Source of the DNA: Mesodorylaimus sp. YZB2_4
Lineage: Eukaryota > Nematoda > Enoplea > Dorylaimida > Dorylaimidae
Direction: 5' to 3'
NCBI GenBank assembly: GCA_030248295.1
Contig: JASANH010001533.1
Location: 174,206 to 238,205 of the forward strand
Length of the DNA stretch: 64,000 nucleotides
Under the pieces are notes generated by a model, which was not told the origin of the DNA, ran no database searches, and worked only from the letters and a program-made list of their open reading frames with translations. The translations under genes and the position numbers were made by a program. This document shows positions 15,907 to 24,883 of the stretch, one piece after another (position 1 is the first letter of the stretch; every line of letters begins with the position of its first letter).

Positions 15907-18900
15907 TTACTCATCAGACTCTTCTTCATCTTCTTTTTCCTCCTCGCTGGCGCCATCTCGATCAACTTCATTGACTAACCATTCCGGGACCGACTCACCA
16001 GCCTCCTTCATCACCTGCAAAGAAGCTTCTTACGTCAATTCTACCCCGACCCCTGAACAACCACCCAATTATACCACCACATTCCTCACCTCGATAAGCT
16101 CTCGCGCTAAAGGAAAATCCATCAACCGATCGTAGAACGAAGTAACCGTCAACTCCTTTCCATCCCGCTTCGCCAACTCCACACGCTTTTTATACTCCTC
16201 GATATTGTCCGGCAAGGTCAGATTCACCAGCCACGACGCCTTGTCTCCAATTTCAGACACATTCGGAATTTCCGATTCCAACACCAACAAAATCGGCTCT
16301 ATTCCGTAATTGAACCGCGCAAAAGCTCGTGCACGATCCTTCTGATCCGTTTCGCTGGAAAAAGCGCACATTTTGATCCAAGAGTTCCAACATTTACCCC
16401 ACACACTTACTTGTGGATCATCCCCACCGACACGTGGGCCAATTTGAAGCGAATACGAATCGTTTCCATGGTAAATCGATTCTGAACAAATACTACCATC
16501 TTCTTTCGGCAAGTACATTCTTTGAAAAGTTCGCATTTGCAAACAACTATAAAAGGAGAACAATCTCGTTACATCTTCTAGCGCGGGCAAACAGAACTTA
16601 CTCTCCCTGTAATTTTCGTCACCACGTAGCACCAAACGTTCCAGTTCATCCTTCTTTGCCAGTTGATCGACTACTATTACGTCGTGCTTCACAGCACGTT
16701 TGGTCTCTTCGATTTGGTCTGCCCCGACAATGAGTTCACCAGAAACGAGATCATCATTTAAGCCTACAAAATATTCATGTTACGAATCGATTGTGCCATA
16801 AACAGATGTTATTCCTTACCAAATCCAGAAGCAGCACCTTCTTGAGCTTCCAATTCACTCGTCGATTTCGATTCATGTCGATGATAATCATCCCCACCGC
16901 CAATATTCTTCCTTCCACGTTCCGATTTCCATTTCTTTTCGTCGACGTGTTTCCTCGGTTTGTCTCGTTCTCGACCAACTCGGCGGCCCTCCTCCAACGA
17001 AGGCGAACCTCGTCGACCAAAATTTCCATGACAATCCTCACCAATAGCCGATTCCCGATGTTCGCGACCCACCTTACGCTCATCCATGACTCGATCTTCG
17101 CAACGTTCACGATTGCGAGTAGCATCGACAGCCGAACTAGTATTCACTTCAAGATCAGGAACAGACGATGAGTCTTGTTCGCAGATGGTCGTCTTCTGAC
17201 CGGTAACAAACAAGCCCTCCGAACCTTGAAGAGCCGGAAATTGACTCATATCGTTCATCGATGGTGGCACATTCGTGAGTGGATCTCCAGGTAAGACAGC
17301 CCAAGCAACATCCCAAAACACGGGACCTGTGGCAGCCTCGGCTTGCAATTCTCCATTTCCACTTTTCAAATCAGGCGCTCGATTATTCTGAAATTACGCC
17401 CCCTCCACTCCCCTGTATTCCTAGTCTCGCAAAGAAAGCACAACTCCTCACCTGTCCAGACTTTGGTATCGAATCGGGCGTATTATCGGGGCAATTACGA
17501 GCAATATGACCATCCTTATGACATTTATAGCACTAAAACAAGAAGTGAACGGCAAGTTTTCGCAATGCCTTTGCTCGCACAAACTGTACATACTATAATC
17601 GGACCATCTCGCGGCCTGCCTTGGGTTTCGATAGGCGGACGATTCCTAAATTCGGTCGATATTGGACCACCACCAAACGATGGACGAGTCTAAAATACAG
17701 GTGAAATTCCAAAATGATCATTACCAATGCCTAGCTTTGCAAATAAAGCACAACTCCTTACCCGTCCAAATTTTGGCATCTCATCAAGCGCATTCTCAGG
17801 GCAATCACGAGCGATATGTTCATCCTTATGACAATTACGGCACTAAAACAAGAGTGTAAAATACGGCCTTCGCTTGAATCACGCGGTGCATACCGTAATC
17901 CTGCGTTCCCTGATGTCCGCCGCAGCACCAGCTTGCCTTTTCGAGTTGTCATTATTAAAACCAGGCGCACGAGTATCCTAAAACGTTTATGTTCATGTTT
18001 TACCACGTCAGCAAGTTATCATGCGCACTCGATGCTGAAGGGACGCATTAAACAAAACATGATTTGCCAGCTCAAAGGCAGACGCGAGCCACTGGGTCAC
18101 GAGCCCGGTAAATCAACCTAAAGACCATTATCCTCGCTAATAGCTCCCTACCTGCCCAAATTTCTCCACGTTTCCAAGCTCCATGTCAGGACAATTACGA
18201 GCAAAATGACCATCCTTATGACAATTATGGCACTAAAACAAAAAGCGAAACGGAAGTTTTCAAAAGGCCCTTGCTCGAGCAAACTGTACATACTGTGATC
18301 GGGCCACCTCGCGGCCTGCCCTGCGTTTCGGTAGGCGGATGATTCATAACTTCGGTCGATATTGGACCGCCACCAAACGATGGACGAGTCTAAAGAAACT
18401 AATTAAGCTCCATAATTTCCATCACCAAAAAGGGCAAGCTCACTCCAAATTCAGGCTCATTTCTGGCTCGCGATAGACCAGGGCAATCCCGCCGAATGTG
18501 ATCTATTTGCCCGCATTCGTGACACTAAAAAGGAAAATATTATCAAACATTATGAAATATTTACCTGCCATTACCCTTACACCATCTCGGCCCGTAACAT
18601 TTTGAGGCGACGGGCGATTTCCGTTATTGGCTGTACCGCATTCGAGCCCCTAATTGCAAAAATACTGTTACCCAGAAGCACAATCAAGAGGGCACATCCT
18701 TACAGTATCAATTTGTTCCGACATCGTATTGCCATCCGGCCAACCTTGTGGCACGCCCTGACATTCAACCAGGCAAGATCCAAAAGCCTAGGAAAAATTC
18801 ACCCAGAAAATGAGTCGAAAACACACAATTTATAACACTTACTGAGCGCTGAAAATCTTTATACTTTTCACCGCGGTTCTCCGTATTTCGCGGGCACGAA

Positions 18901-20238
18901 CGACTGATATGTCCTTCCATTTGGCATATGTGACACTAAAAAACCATACTGTTCGAACAGCACCGACTCATTTTTACCAATACGAGCTCTTACAATACGC
19001 ATATTGTTTTTAGTGTGGACAGCTTTCGTCAAACCGGTTTCTGTAGTGCCCCACGCTGTCGTATTACCTCGAGCAACTTGGACATCTACTCCCCACTGAA
19101 AAAATTTGTAACTAGCATTAGGCTATAGAGCTATCTGAAAAAATTGGGGACACACCTGTTGCTGTTGGGGTTGATACGGACCACCATGCGCTTGATAACG
19201 GCTCGAAAAACCGAACGGTTGTTGACCAGCGTTGTAATCGGTTTGACCGAATTGATTCTCCTGAACAGGTTTATTTGGACAGCCACGACTAAAATGACCC
19301 GTTTGCCCGCAATTGTGGCACTAAAAAAGGCATTAGCAATTGAGAATAACGAGAGAATTCCAACTACATCGCCCTACCGAGAAAGATTGCTTTCGAGATT
19401 CCTTAGCAGCCGCGTCTTGAGTATAAATGTTGCCAAAGTTATTAGTCGCGCCTTCTTGCCATGAGTCACGCTTATTTCCGGCCGGTTGTTCATTTCCTCG
19501 CACATCCCTCGAATGTTCGACTCCGCGCGCGTCATTAAAGTGTTCCGCTTGACCAAAACGCCTTCCATGGTCGCCTTCCTGATAATTGCCGGGCTTTCGT
19601 CGATCTGTAATTAAAAAAGACACCTTGTTAAAGCTAATGCACAGACAAACTGTCTTACAGCATAGGGAAGTAAGCAAGAACGTTCACAAGATCTAATGCA
19701 TTCGTCGAGGCTGAGTAAAACATTTTGTGCATAACATGCACCTTGACCCTCGAGTGCGCATTCCCCGTTTAGTGGTGTGGTGAAACGAGTACTTCTAACA
19801 CTGAAATTAAACCGAATGCTAGAAACGAAGCCCTATGCCAGCTGCTCACTCGTATTATCCCTTGGGTAGCCGCCACGTCGACCAGGTCGACCATCGCTCC
19901 TCGAGCGACCTGGGTCCCCGTCGCCCTCCATTCCTCCAGGAGGCGCTTGTCGAATGTTGCACAACGGAGCACTGAAAAGGTTGATCAAATCGTGGAGCAC
20001 ATGTAATACAGAAATACATAGGGCAGGGTTTCCAAGGACCCTACGTGTTCGCCCATCCATGCAAGTATGCACTTACACAATCAAGCACCACTACACATGC
20101 ACAATAGGTAGCAAATCCTCCTTCTGATTTGCAGATCGTAACCACCATCAGAGATGGTGCGGTACCTACAGCAAAAAGTTTGTCGTAAAAACAATTCTCT
20201 TACCCGCGGCCAATGCCGCCCATTCCGCTTTGATTCAT
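15907..20238 (-). CDS. CCHC zinc-knuckle protein with decayed Vasa/GLH-type RecA2 lobe
   Basis: Twenty exons close in phase from ATG 20238 to TAA 15907, about 911 residues. Exons: 20204-20238, 19850-19971, 19378-19604, 19156-19320, 18994-19095, 18843-18935, 18704-18787, 18581-18649, 18444-18524, 18294-18389, 18152-18232, 17894-17977, 17762-17842, 17594-17689, 17452-17532, 16820-17387, 16602-16763, 16411-16546, 16090-16354, 15907-16014. The N-terminus is Gly/Arg-rich. Six CX2CX4HX4C knuckles follow, for example CHNCGQTGHFSRGC and CYKCHKDGHIARNC. A charged 189-codon exon links to a region from about residue 689 that follows Vasa/DDX4 lobe 2: VVFVQNRFTMETIRIRF (motif IV), a Q-x-x-R-x-x-A-x-x-x-F block, IPNV, LTLPDNIEEY, VTSFYD and the end GESVPEWL. 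The first lobe with Walker A and DEAD boxes is absent. Motif V has lost AARGLD, and motif VI HRIGRTGR reads KRVELAKRDG. Helicase activity is not expected; RNA binding through the knuckles is likely by family. A germline role is inference only. Confidence 0.85.
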
Positions 20239-21493: not shown

Positions 21494-22102
21494 CGAATGG
21501 AGACTGATCAGACTTGTCCAACAGTAATCAAAAGATGTCATTCGTAAAAATGTGCTTTGATGTTAGACCGAACTTTCGTGCACATTCAATGCATTCTACT
21601 GTTTACTATTTAACCTTGCTGTGCCCGTGTGCTCACAGCGCAGTCCTGTCGGTGAGTAATGCACGGCACGATTGTGGTTTCTTCGGTGTCCTGATGATGA
21701 ATCGAAGGAAACTTGATTTAATTTCGTTTCGTCTATCTGCCAATGCTGGTAGCCTAGCCAACATCGCCAGCGCGTGTTTTCTGCCCGCAGTGCACCAGTT
21801 GCCACGTTTCGGACTTTGCTCTGGCGTGATAACGTGGAATCCTGGCCGAGGCTAAATGTCATGGCATCGAGCGGAGCTCCAGCGGCTCAGCGTACTTCGC
21901 CATCGTGGGTCTGAGGTTATAATTGCGTCTTCTCAGTAAGCACAGCCAGATTACTTTTTGGTTTATCATTGTCACGTGTCATCCTTCTAGGCTCGAGTGA
22001 TATCCTTATCAGCTATTGATCATAGTATCGATTTCTTATCTGGCCTTTAATATCACTCTTCCTTATCACTGTTCATATCTACTTTTCAGGGCTATCATCA
22101 GC
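21494..22102. other. Intergenic, upstream of the UGT gene
   Basis: No supported gene. Short frames only. Confidence 0.4.
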
Positions 22103-24883
22103 ATGTCATTGGCACGTCTCCCTGTCCTATACTTGCTGCTGATCTCTCTGATCGGGATCGATTGTGCCCACATCGGCCTGTTCGCTAGCACTGGATGCTA
22201 CAGTCACGATGTCATGATGCGTCACTTCGCCGATCGTCTTGTCTCTGCGGAAGGTGGCTCTCATCAAGTGACCTTGATCCAAATCAGAGTCTACGAATTC
22301 AATCGAGCTCTGCCATCCCAACCTTCGATTTCGCCCTGGCAACACCTCTCGTACGATGCGTGCTCCAACAATTCGATGGACACTCTTCGACGATTACAGC
22401 GAGAAATGTGGACAAAGTTGGTCCCTTATGACCCGAATTCGTTTAGTACCGAAGGTGTCAAAATTCTGACCAGCTTGCACAAGCATCATATCAATGCTTG
22501 TGATAAGGCCTTGAGGGACGGGGTGTTCATGGAGAAGGTGAAGAAGTTACGATTGGATCTGCTTGTCACGGACTACGTCTTGAATGAATGCGCGCTACGT
22601 TTCACCAATGTGCTCGATGTCAATTTGGCCTATTTCTCGAATTACCCCATCCTGAGCAGTTATGCCGTGGACTTAGGTATGTGCTGGGGTGGGAGGGAAA
22701 TGCTAGTGTCAGACAAATCTGTTCTCGGGACAACAATACACTGATGCTGTAGATGTCCTAGCTAGAGAAGCGACCATCAGTCCTGCGTGGAGCCGTAGCT
22801 GGAGCTGGTTGGATCATCCAGTGATGAACATGGCATATACAGACGCGTTATAATGAAGAGGGAGTCTTGATATAAATGGGGTCTTCGTGCTTGGACCACT
22901 GAAAATTTGTTGGGCTAGGGACTGATCCGCCAATTCAGGCAATTGCCAACCCTTTAGGCATCTCCTCCACTCCGTCCTACGTTCCGTCCGTCATTGGCTA
23001 CGAATCGACCAGTATGGCATTCCATCAACGACTGTTCAATTCCCTCTCCTACTTCCTTTTATGGTCGACCCGTCAATGGTTCGATTACGATGCCAGCCAG
23101 ACTTTCAGACGTGCCCTGGGCATTCGCGCGTTCAAGAAATCCCGACCGAAATCGTATCGATCAGTGGTGTCCTTCGCGACTCCGTTCGAGACGATGGTGG
23201 ACATTCCTCGGCCAGTGGCACGCAATTTGCACTACTTTGGGTGCGATCATTGTTTGGATACGGAGAGTGATGGGGTGGCAGCACTGGATGCTTTGAAGGT
23301 ACGTTGGATTGGGAGTATTTTGTAGACGAACTGATGGTCTCGTGAAACCCTTGCATCGGTACCGGGATAACTACTAGGTAGCTGCTAGGTCTCGAGGAAC
23401 TATCCCGCATAGTCCACGACTCCTGTTCTAGGTTTATTAGCCAACCACACGCGATGACTGTGTTGACTCATGAGTCGATGATCATCTGTAAGTCGGCCGT
23501 GGGTCTTTTGAGGGTCCAAGTTCCATGTTGCTAGGTGCAGTCCAGGCCAGGAACTCAAGACCTCTTCAACTCGATCTCTCGCGGTCTCGTTCTGACCCTA
23601 ACTTAGAGAGGCAGACCAGTTCCCTGAACCAGTGCACCGATACTGAAGGTGCATCCACTCCTGTTTCACTGGTGACAGGCACAATTAATAAATAGATGTA
23701 AAAGAGCGTACGCACAGGTTCAATAAAATAAAGTGGTTCAGTGGATGACATTCATGAAATGAACACTTTCACAGTCATCTGGGACACGCCCTAAATTCTG
23801 GGCATCCATGCAGTAGTACTATGATGTAGGATAGGATATCTACGATACATGTGTGGAGGTGATCCAGAACTCGGTGTTTTCTGCAGCACGCATTTCACGT
23901 CATCAATATGCATGTGTATGCAACAATGTTTGTGTTTCTTTTTTCAGATTCTCAACATATCAACCAGCACTAGTAAAATAATTCTAGTCACATTTGGCAC
24001 AGTGACCAGAGGCGATCAAGTACCCGCTGTACAACTGCAACGTCTGATTCGTGCATTTGCTAGATTCGCCTCAGTCACATTCGTATGGCAACTGGACGTG
24101 ACCCTGGACTACTTCTTGCACCGTGTTCTGGCTCCGATCGATTTCCCGATGCCACGCAACGTTCATCTGTTCCCTTGGATCCCCTTGAAACAACTGTTCA
24201 AGGACAGCCGGGTCATCCTGTCCATCAACCATGGCGGTATCAGCACGTGTTCCGAGTCTGTACACCACGGGATCCCTATATTGGGCGTGGCCCTTCAGGG
24301 TGATCAGAGCTACAACTTGGCACGGCTGGTCGATAAGGGCGTGGCAGAAATGTTCCCCGTGTCACGTCTAACTGAAGAAGCCATGTACGAAAAACTGTCG
24401 ATTATGTGCAACAATATAGATAGGTAAGTTAGTCTGCTTCTATCTGTTATCGAGGTGAACTTCGATCGGTCAACTCACACAGACCAATCAGAGAGGGCCT
24501 CGCTTTCTGATTGGTCAATCACAAATGACGCTTTGCACTCTTCCAGATACAAGGCATCAGCTCGCAAGCTCCGATCGATGGTACGTGATCACAAATTGTT
24601 GCACAGTGGTCCTCCTCCCTCCTTATTCTGGGTGGGTTGGACGGCTCGGCACTTTGGGCAAGGACGAAATGGATCGAGTGCAGCAATCATGGTCAAACGA
24701 TTCCTGACTTTGCGCGATCCACCCAATTGGTTCTTGTATTATAATATGGATATAATACTGACATTTTTCGCTTCATTTGTCTTGCTTATTTGGATCGCTA
24801 TTGCTTTACGTCGTGCTCTAGCACCATTGCTTTCGAAGCGTGTTCATATCCGAATTTCACGCTCAAAATCCAAACTATGTTAG
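22103..24883 (+). CDS. UDP-glycosyltransferase (UGT family, ER membrane)
   Basis: Four exons, 22103-22676, 22919-23298, 23948-24423 and 24547-24883, close exactly in phase and give 588 residues. An N-terminal signal peptide (hydrophobic, ending near IDCAH) is followed by the acceptor-binding half, which holds an SHD-type candidate catalytic histidine early on (GCYSHDVMMRHF). The donor-binding half has the UGT signature beginning at about residue 413: HGGISTCSESVHHGIP, then DQSYNLARLVDKG. A single C-terminal membrane helix and a short Arg/Lys-rich cytoplasmic tail complete the family's type I ER layout. Such enzymes transfer glucose or glucuronate from UDP-sugars to small lipophilic molecules in the ER lumen; the sugar and acceptor cannot be read from sequence. 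Length is slightly above the usual 520-530. The donor motif has Leu where most UGTs have Ala after DQxxN. The start is the ATG at the signal peptide; the frame is open further upstream to 22016. Confidence 0.93.

Follow-up and report, generated by a model that had tools for sequence, protein, structure and literature searches.

A candidate lobe-2-only descendant of a CCHC Vasa/GLH helicase in the nematode Mesodorylaimus sp. YZB2_4

Introduction

The GLH proteins of nematodes are GLH/Vasa (DDX4) helicases equipped with CCHC zinc knuckles, and in the general view a DEAD-box helicase requires the pair of its lobes. CNBP-type proteins carry several CX2CX4HX4C knuckles in series and have no helicase lobe, SOLO keeps the N-terminal exons and lacks the helicase domain, and the pseudohelicase Utp25 is, to our knowledge, known neither as a Vasa relative nor as a knuckle protein. 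Here we describe a gene within 64,000 nucleotides of the genome of the nematode Mesodorylaimus sp. YZB2_4 (contig JASANH010001533.1, positions 174,206 to 238,205; this whole stretch is referred to as the window), whose predicted product carries six zinc knuckles and a Vasa-type lobe 2 and lacks lobe 1, the DEAD lobe. Another contig (C18) was found to carry a gene built in the same way, and the two are referred to as half-helicases.

The closest known counterparts of the window gene are two-lobe GLH/Vasa genes of the same genome (on contigs C88, C1, C165, C39, C304 and C8), with which it shares knuckles placed before the helicase part, lobe 2 itself and two introns within lobe 2, one of which cannot be seen in the uncertain C304 model. 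It differs from them by an added pair of CxC motifs. Of the features of Vasa/DDX4-GLH helicases, as predicted from the sequence, lobe 2 and the family introns are present, whereas lobe 1, working motifs V and VI, the aromatic residues that contact LOTUS proteins and the terminal tryptophan are missing. With CNBP-type proteins it has the serial CX2CX4HX4C knuckles in common, and differs in having a helicase lobe 2.

Helicase parts that are isolated or disabled have been described elsewhere. The HELICc domain of fly Vasa (amino acids 460–621) reaches germ plasm and nuage by itself (PMC4588571, in excerpt). Both this fragment and the window protein offer a lone Vasa lobe 2; the fly fragment is artificial, interacts with Oskar and has intact catalytic motifs, whereas the lobe in the window is a natural one, degenerate and attached to knuckles. 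The pseudohelicase Utp25 of the small-subunit processome is comparable as a DEAD-box-like protein with dispensable motifs that was kept for another role; it has both lobes according to its model (PMC9539457, in excerpt), and the window gene, lacking lobe 1, is therefore not a case of the Utp25 type. Drosophila SOLO is produced from the vasa locus by alternative splicing (PMC4400588, in excerpt). It is likewise a Vasa-locus product without a working helicase, whereas the window gene is a separate gene and keeps lobe 2.

Results

Gene structure and zinc knuckles

The window gene occupies positions 15907..20238 on the minus strand. Its 20 exons comprise 2736 nucleotides including the stop and encode 911 amino acids; the coding length is divisible by three, and three-frame translation showed no internal stop and a single terminal one. 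Splice sites were picked by eye among GT/AG dinucleotides, so all 19 introns are GT-AG by construction, which does not apply to the reading frame staying open across all joins. Coordinates, strand, exon number and the 911 open codons agree with those of a first-pass annotation made from the letters of the window, which had also described six CCHC knuckles followed by a charged linker. The knuckles were recovered both as CX2CX4HX4C patterns (residues 129, 218, 300, 359, 414 and 473) and as six stretches matching Pfam zf-CCHC (82.7 bits). On this basis the protein can be classed among CCHC zinc-knuckle repeat proteins, and its knuckles would be expected to bind RNA.

For all six knuckles the first codon is also the start of an exon (AG|TGY), and this holds for both knuckles of the C18 gene, while in six two-lobe relatives an AG precedes only 0 to 2 knuckles per gene. 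Exons 10-11 and 14-15 represent an internal duplication with 71% amino acid identity over 59 codons, and the intron inside the duplicated pairs is identical at 50 of 61 positions between the copies. The ratio of nonsynonymous to synonymous substitution rates (omega; all estimates by our own script, GY94 type, F3x4 frequencies) between the two exon pairs is 0.39 (2dlnL 5.1 against omega 1). Knuckle number differs between the half-helicases, with six in the window gene and two in the C18 gene.

A Vasa-type lobe 2 and no lobe 1

The last 222 residues of the window protein match Helicase_C with 29.0 bits (E=1.4e-6; cut-off 23.5). In phmmer searches of the Protein Data Bank the protein matched DDX53 (E=9.9e-11), DDX3X (2.1e-10) and fly Vasa (5nt7; 4.6e-7), and a profile of both half-helicases matched Bombyx Vasa (BmVLG; 4.6e-16), together with DDX53, DDX3X and fly Vasa (1.8e-12). 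Five lobe 2s belonging to two-lobe genes of this genome were matched in a profile-profile comparison at 99.7% (E=1.5e-26, 183 columns). These results bear out the Vasa-type lobe 2 proposed in the first pass; exon by exon, the match is weak.

Motif V (VATxVAARGLD) reads LVLESEIPNVS in the window gene and ILMASEAPDCA in the C18 gene, and motif VI (HRIGRTGR) reads KRVELAKR and ARIELIRQ, respectively, in keeping with the earlier observation that the core of motif V is lost and motif VI replaced. The QxxR motif is kept in the window gene (QKDR) and not in the C18 gene (SRDR). The protein ends in an acidic tail (EDEEESDE) that lacks tryptophan; over the last 22 residues the net number of acidic ones is 11. 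An acidic C-terminal motif with a final or penultimate tryptophan is Vasa-specific (PMC4400588, in excerpt), and in the window gene this motif is therefore half present. When exon 19 (88 amino acids) was submitted to AlphaFold alone as a single sequence, an all-helical model with a predicted local distance difference test score of 52 was returned, which tells nothing about the fold and was set aside.

The absence of Walker A, DEAD and SAT motifs, and with them of the DEAD lobe, was likewise confirmed. None of GKT, GKS, DEAD, SAT, PTREL, TPGR and HRIGR occurs in the 911 amino acids. A hidden Markov model (HMM) of lobe 1, trained on 14 helicases of this genome and run as an unfiltered six-frame search on open segments of at least 15 amino acids, detected no lobe 1 in the full 64 kb window (best E=0.98) or in 10 kb around the C18 gene (best E=5.5). 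In two control loci, both of which belong to the training set, it gave six matches at 1.4e-17 or better. Neither the window nor the C18 stretch contains any N. A genome-wide search for DEAD, in which 34 of 142 candidates were scored, returned 39 matches, none of them on contigs C170 or C18. As a possible relic of lobe 1, motif-Ia-like strings noticed by eye in the linker (STSEL in the window gene, VVPTSGL in the C18 gene) were considered and set aside, the lobe-1 HMM giving no support. The anatomy of the protein as predicted excludes ATP-driven unwinding of the DEAD-box type.

A second half-helicase gene

The genome (145 Mb, 1067 contigs) was searched by tblastn with lobe 2 of the window gene. 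Beyond the self-match, the top hit lay on C18 at about 275.6-276.3 kb, with 46% identity in its best piece (E=6.6e-18), followed by a 156-base piece on C186 at 60% identity and then by helicases led by those on C88 and C1; C18 rows were counted only if near 275 kb. The C18 gene (C18:275465-278018, minus strand) has 11 exons and encodes 620 amino acids; lobe 2 is its only helicase lobe, and it also has a charged stretch and two knuckles. Its last four exons measure 162/139/265/102 nucleotides, compared with 162/136/265/108 in the window gene, and their phases are identical. Because the same four exons and phases thus recur at a separate locus, a build arising by chance is very unlikely. The first exons are also alike, that of the C18 gene having 41 nucleotides (MDPQNWPRGGLGRG) and ending in the same phase 2.

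The two lobe 2s share 45% amino acid identity, and TSFYD, WLVN, IEEY and ESVPxWL are invariant between them, as are four new cysteines. The latter form a CxC-x5/6-CxC insertion just ahead of the motif IV strand, CKCELFKECTC in the window gene and CECKMKFRACKC in the C18 gene, which occurs in none of the 14 two-lobe helicases examined.

Over 215 lobe-2 codons omega between the two genes is 0.048, with dN 0.55 and dS of about 11 (saturated), and omega 1 is rejected (2dlnL 68.1); identity at the three codon positions is 0.57, 0.68 and 0.39. Lobe 2 thus evolves under constraint between the two genes, which is hard to square with a pseudogene. The view that the open frame marks a maintained protein, originally taken from the 911 codons, gains support from omega well under 1 and from the second gene of the same build.

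A reverse search of the genome with the C18 lobe 2 gave no clear third copy; relatives were sought with lobe-2 queries, and paralogues that have just the knuckle half in common may be missed. A weak match to the C18 lobe 2 at C242:21798-22028 (E=0.03, 38% identity, four stops) is either a possible decayed third copy or due to chance. The piece at C186:2323-2478 appears, by eye, to be a decayed, frame-shifted part of exon 19, with no neighbouring exons recognised.

Relationship to the two-lobe genes

Nine GLH-like loci, on C88, C1, C304, C165, C39, C8, C279, C58 (at 92 kb) and C46, showed both lobes in spliced alignment, so that two-lobe Vasa-type genes are present and numerous in this genome; the near-identical loci on C279 and C58 may represent a single gene. 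Checked with the strict pattern, all loci except C279, C58 and C46 carry knuckles on the gene strand (6/6, with 1 to 7 knuckles each), and order and strand suggest that these are in the same transcript as the helicase. The C88 gene (C88:148500-156500) has six knuckles and two lobes. If its last aligned exon is extended as far as the next stop codon, it ends in TDEEW, an ending of the acidic, tryptophan-bearing kind described as Vasa-specific (PMC4400588, in excerpt); among the genes of this genome it is a good Vasa orthologue candidate.

Two introns connect the half-helicases with this family. One, in phase 2 at column 342 of the alignment, is found in both half-helicases and in 8/9 GLH-like genes, the missing one being C304, whose gene model came out in two versions and is uncertain; the other, in phase 0 at column 434, is found in both and in 9/9. 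Neither occurs in five other helicases, which we read as DDX3-, DDX5-, DDX6- and DDX46-like. A counterpart of the half-helicase first exon, sought with one pattern, was found in none of the nine loci. Altogether 21 loci were spliced-aligned, of which 14 two-lobe genes and the C18 gene were taken into the alignment and tree; L029 and L038-L042 are broken or distant and were excluded, and L010 and L025 were read in frames only. The maximum-likelihood tree of 16 lobe 2s unites the half-helicases (100/100), with a stem that measures 2.34 changes per site. Placements among the GLH-like genes are weak (48/65), single out no parent and were not used, and given the long stem the place of the pair among the helicases is unsure.

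Descent from a CCHC Vasa/GLH-type gene is supported by the shared introns, the profile match and the presence of two-lobe relatives in this genome. There are strong indications that a two-lobe gene was duplicated at the DNA level and that its lobe-1 exons were lost before the two half-genes parted, and a single loss preceding their divergence would be the most likely course.

Two further observations concern the two-lobe family. At C58:544000-551500 (L029) lies a CCHC helicase close to the C39 gene, whose lobe 2 breaks off in the spliced alignment and which is perhaps a disrupted copy. The near-identical pair at C279:72500-80000 and C58:89500-97500 is Vasa-like, has DEAH instead of DEAD, reads HSIGRTGR at motif VI, and may represent recent duplicates or haplotype contigs.

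Feature coordinates and other observations

The features of the window gene are listed in Table 1.

Table 1. Features of the half-helicase gene, in window positions
Feature	Position	Strand	Remarks
Whole coding gene, 20 exons, 911 aa (amino acids)	15907..20238	-	Divisible by 3, one terminal stop, GT-AG by eye
Exon 1, 35 nt (nucleotides), MNQSGMGGIGRG	20204..20238	-	Gene model
Exons 2-3, RG/G-rich N-terminal region	19378..19971	-	Gene model
Exon 4, knuckle 1 CHNCGQTGHFSRGC	19156..19320	-	First Cys at exon start
Exon 6, knuckle 2 CHICQMEGHISRSC	18843..18935	-	Pattern
Exon 9, knuckle 3 CHECGQIDHIRRDC	18444..18524	-	Pattern
Exons 10-11, knuckle 4; first copy of internal two-exon duplication	18152..18389	-	Sequence comparison
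Exon 13, knuckle 5 CRNCHKDEHIARDC	17762..17842	-	Pattern
Exons 14-15, knuckle 6; second copy of duplication	17452..17689	-	Sequence comparison
Exon 16, charged linker	16820..17387	-	Gene model; lobe-1 relic not found (HMM)
Exon 17, 162 nt, start of lobe 2, phase 1 to 1	16602..16763	-	Length and phases equal in C18 gene
Exon 18, Cys insertion and motif IV strand VVFVQNRF	16411..16546	-	End intron phase 2, common to 8/9 GLH-type genes
CKCELFKECTC, CxC-x5-CxC element	16509..16541	-	CxC-x6-CxC at equivalent C18 site
Exon 19, 265 nt in both half-helicase genes	16090..16354	-	QKDR, LTLPDNIEEY, TSFYD kept; motifs V and VI lost; closing intron (phase 0) common to 9/9 GLH-type genes
Exon 20, ESVPEWL, acidic tail and stop	15907..16014	-	Gene model

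Adjoining the window gene, on the plus strand at about 22100-23300, are frames that by eye resemble a UDP-glucuronosyltransferase. A spliced-leader (SL1) pattern, applied with at most 3 mismatches, had 0 matches; the Rfam SL1 model gave no match among the 50 of 31302 candidates scored, and none in the controls either. On C73, at about 253316-254668, a cox1-like frame of 523 codons stays open when read with the invertebrate mitochondrial code; after it comes a 395-codon frame that is nad4-like by eye, and before it an inverted cox1 fragment. This stretch probably represents mitochondrial sequence within a nuclear contig. A cox1 copy with this code and the many Vasa-type genes point to an animal.

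Discussion

Taken together, the homology of the half-helicases, their shared introns, the existence of a second gene and the constraint on lobe 2 lead us to view the window gene as a lobe-2-only descendant of a CCHC Vasa/GLH helicase that would act as an RNA-bound, helicase-free adaptor, a reading to which we assign a probability of about 0.55. An ancestral two-lobe CCHC Vasa/GLH gene would have been duplicated at the DNA level, the copy losing its lobe-1 exons. Knuckles and RG-rich stretches would bind RNA, while the pseudo-RecA lobe, perhaps zinc-stabilised on the CxC/CxC pair, would neither bind ATP nor clamp RNA and would instead provide a docking surface for proteins; the acidic tail and the VPxWL end may retain some contacts of the parental lobe. 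Such an adaptor could hold mRNA in Vasa-type granules, or it could compete with the active helicases for shared RNA and thereby limit them. Lobe 2 on its own is able to serve in docking, as suggested by fly lobe 2, which localises alone, and by the LOTUS proteins MIP-1 and MIP-2, which bind and anchor GLH-1 in Caenorhabditis elegans (PMC8331183, in excerpt).

Several points weigh against this interpretation. The window gene is missing from a genome-wide exon-by-exon scan for Helicase_C (105 matches, E<=0.001). Of the columns invariant in five two-lobe genes, split into 20 catalytic and 75 other ones, its lobe 2 keeps 4/20 and 18/75, respectively (p=1.0), and that of the C18 gene 3/20 and 23/75 (p=0.26); a selective loss of catalytic motifs with the rest retained, which we had considered, is unsupported, the difference being significant in neither gene. 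Because lobe 2 has diverged throughout and was missed by the scan, its fold is not assured. The saturated dS makes omega a rough value, and a pairwise estimate does not show constraint for each lineage. The zinc site is a suggestion drawn from cysteine spacing. Deletion of residue 617 of fly Vasa lowers eIF5B binding (PMC4400588, in excerpt); this residue, a proline in numbering derived on structure 5nt7 and PMC5458760, is kept in both half-helicases (VPEWL, VPDWL), yet it is present in DDX3-type genes too and is therefore not specific. All steps beyond a maintained protein without lobe 1, and equally expression, localisation and binding, are what we propose and not what we observed.

Other explanations have to be weighed against these data. 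Fly Vasa lobe 2 binds LOTUS proteins through F504 and F508, and the LOTUS domain of Oskar binds lobe 2 alone (PMC5458760, in excerpt). A lone lobe 2 might therefore act as a decoy that occupies the LOTUS proteins which recruit and stimulate Vasa, thereby dampening true Vasa; the localisation of the lone fly lobe 2 to germ plasm (PMC4588571, in excerpt) and LOTUS-type (OST-HTH) matches at three places in the genome (C14, C43, C142) would fit. We nevertheless regard it as rather unlikely. Either F504E or F508E abolishes binding in the fly (PMC5458760, in excerpt), and the two positions are T/R in the window gene and C/G in the C18 gene, which counts against the decoy; F504 is kept in 4/9 of the two-lobe relatives. 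The loss of these aromatic contacts is why an adaptor with other partners is favoured, and together with the half-present C-terminal motif it weakens the first-pass suggestion of a dominant partner of the true Vasa. Somewhat less unlikely, though still doubtful, is a protein that works only through its knuckles, in the manner of CNBP, with lobe 2 as a passive remnant. The six knuckles and their growth by exon duplication would agree with this, as would the strong divergence of lobe 2 along its long stem. It is lobe 2, however, that both copies clearly keep, with its low omega, invariant motifs and four cysteines, whereas the knuckle number varies.

Decay of a GLH-type helicase into a pseudogene, a process to which the exon-19 fragment at C186:2323-2478 and the C58 copy with its broken-off lobe 2 might testify, is largely refuted for the half-helicases themselves by 911 and 620 open codons in two copies and by the rejection of omega 1. 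Nearly as improbable are lobe-1 exons that exist and were missed through misassembly, distant position or trans-splicing. Such an oversight would be aided by the 108 of 142 first-look DEAD candidates left unscored and by a gene model built from the DNA, but there is no N in either stretch, and the lobe-1 HMM is silent in 64 kb and in 10 kb around the C18 gene. Loss is preferred over oversight because two separate, related loci share both the absence of lobe 1 and dead motifs V and VI.

Compared with the first-pass annotation, the two genes of this kind, their common new cysteine element and the many-member two-lobe family are new. No natural lobe-2-only Vasa was found in the open-licence literature searched, which does not by itself show that none has been published. 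More tentatively than the adaptor reading, the two genes might stand for a lasting natural half-helicase family, with a lobe 2 without the ATPase lobe, a new four-cysteine zinc site and a growing knuckle array, forming a non-enzymatic counterpart of an expanded GLH family in germ granules.

Vasa has roles beyond ATP-driven remodelling, namely docking, RNA clamping and granule scaffolding, which are difficult to tease apart by experiment. A half-Vasa that is natural, duplicated and under selection would separate them, as its function would be independent of ATP hydrolysis by the DEAD lobe, and it would offer a test case for a helicase turning into something else by loss of a lobe, gain of a cysteine element and duplication of knuckles.

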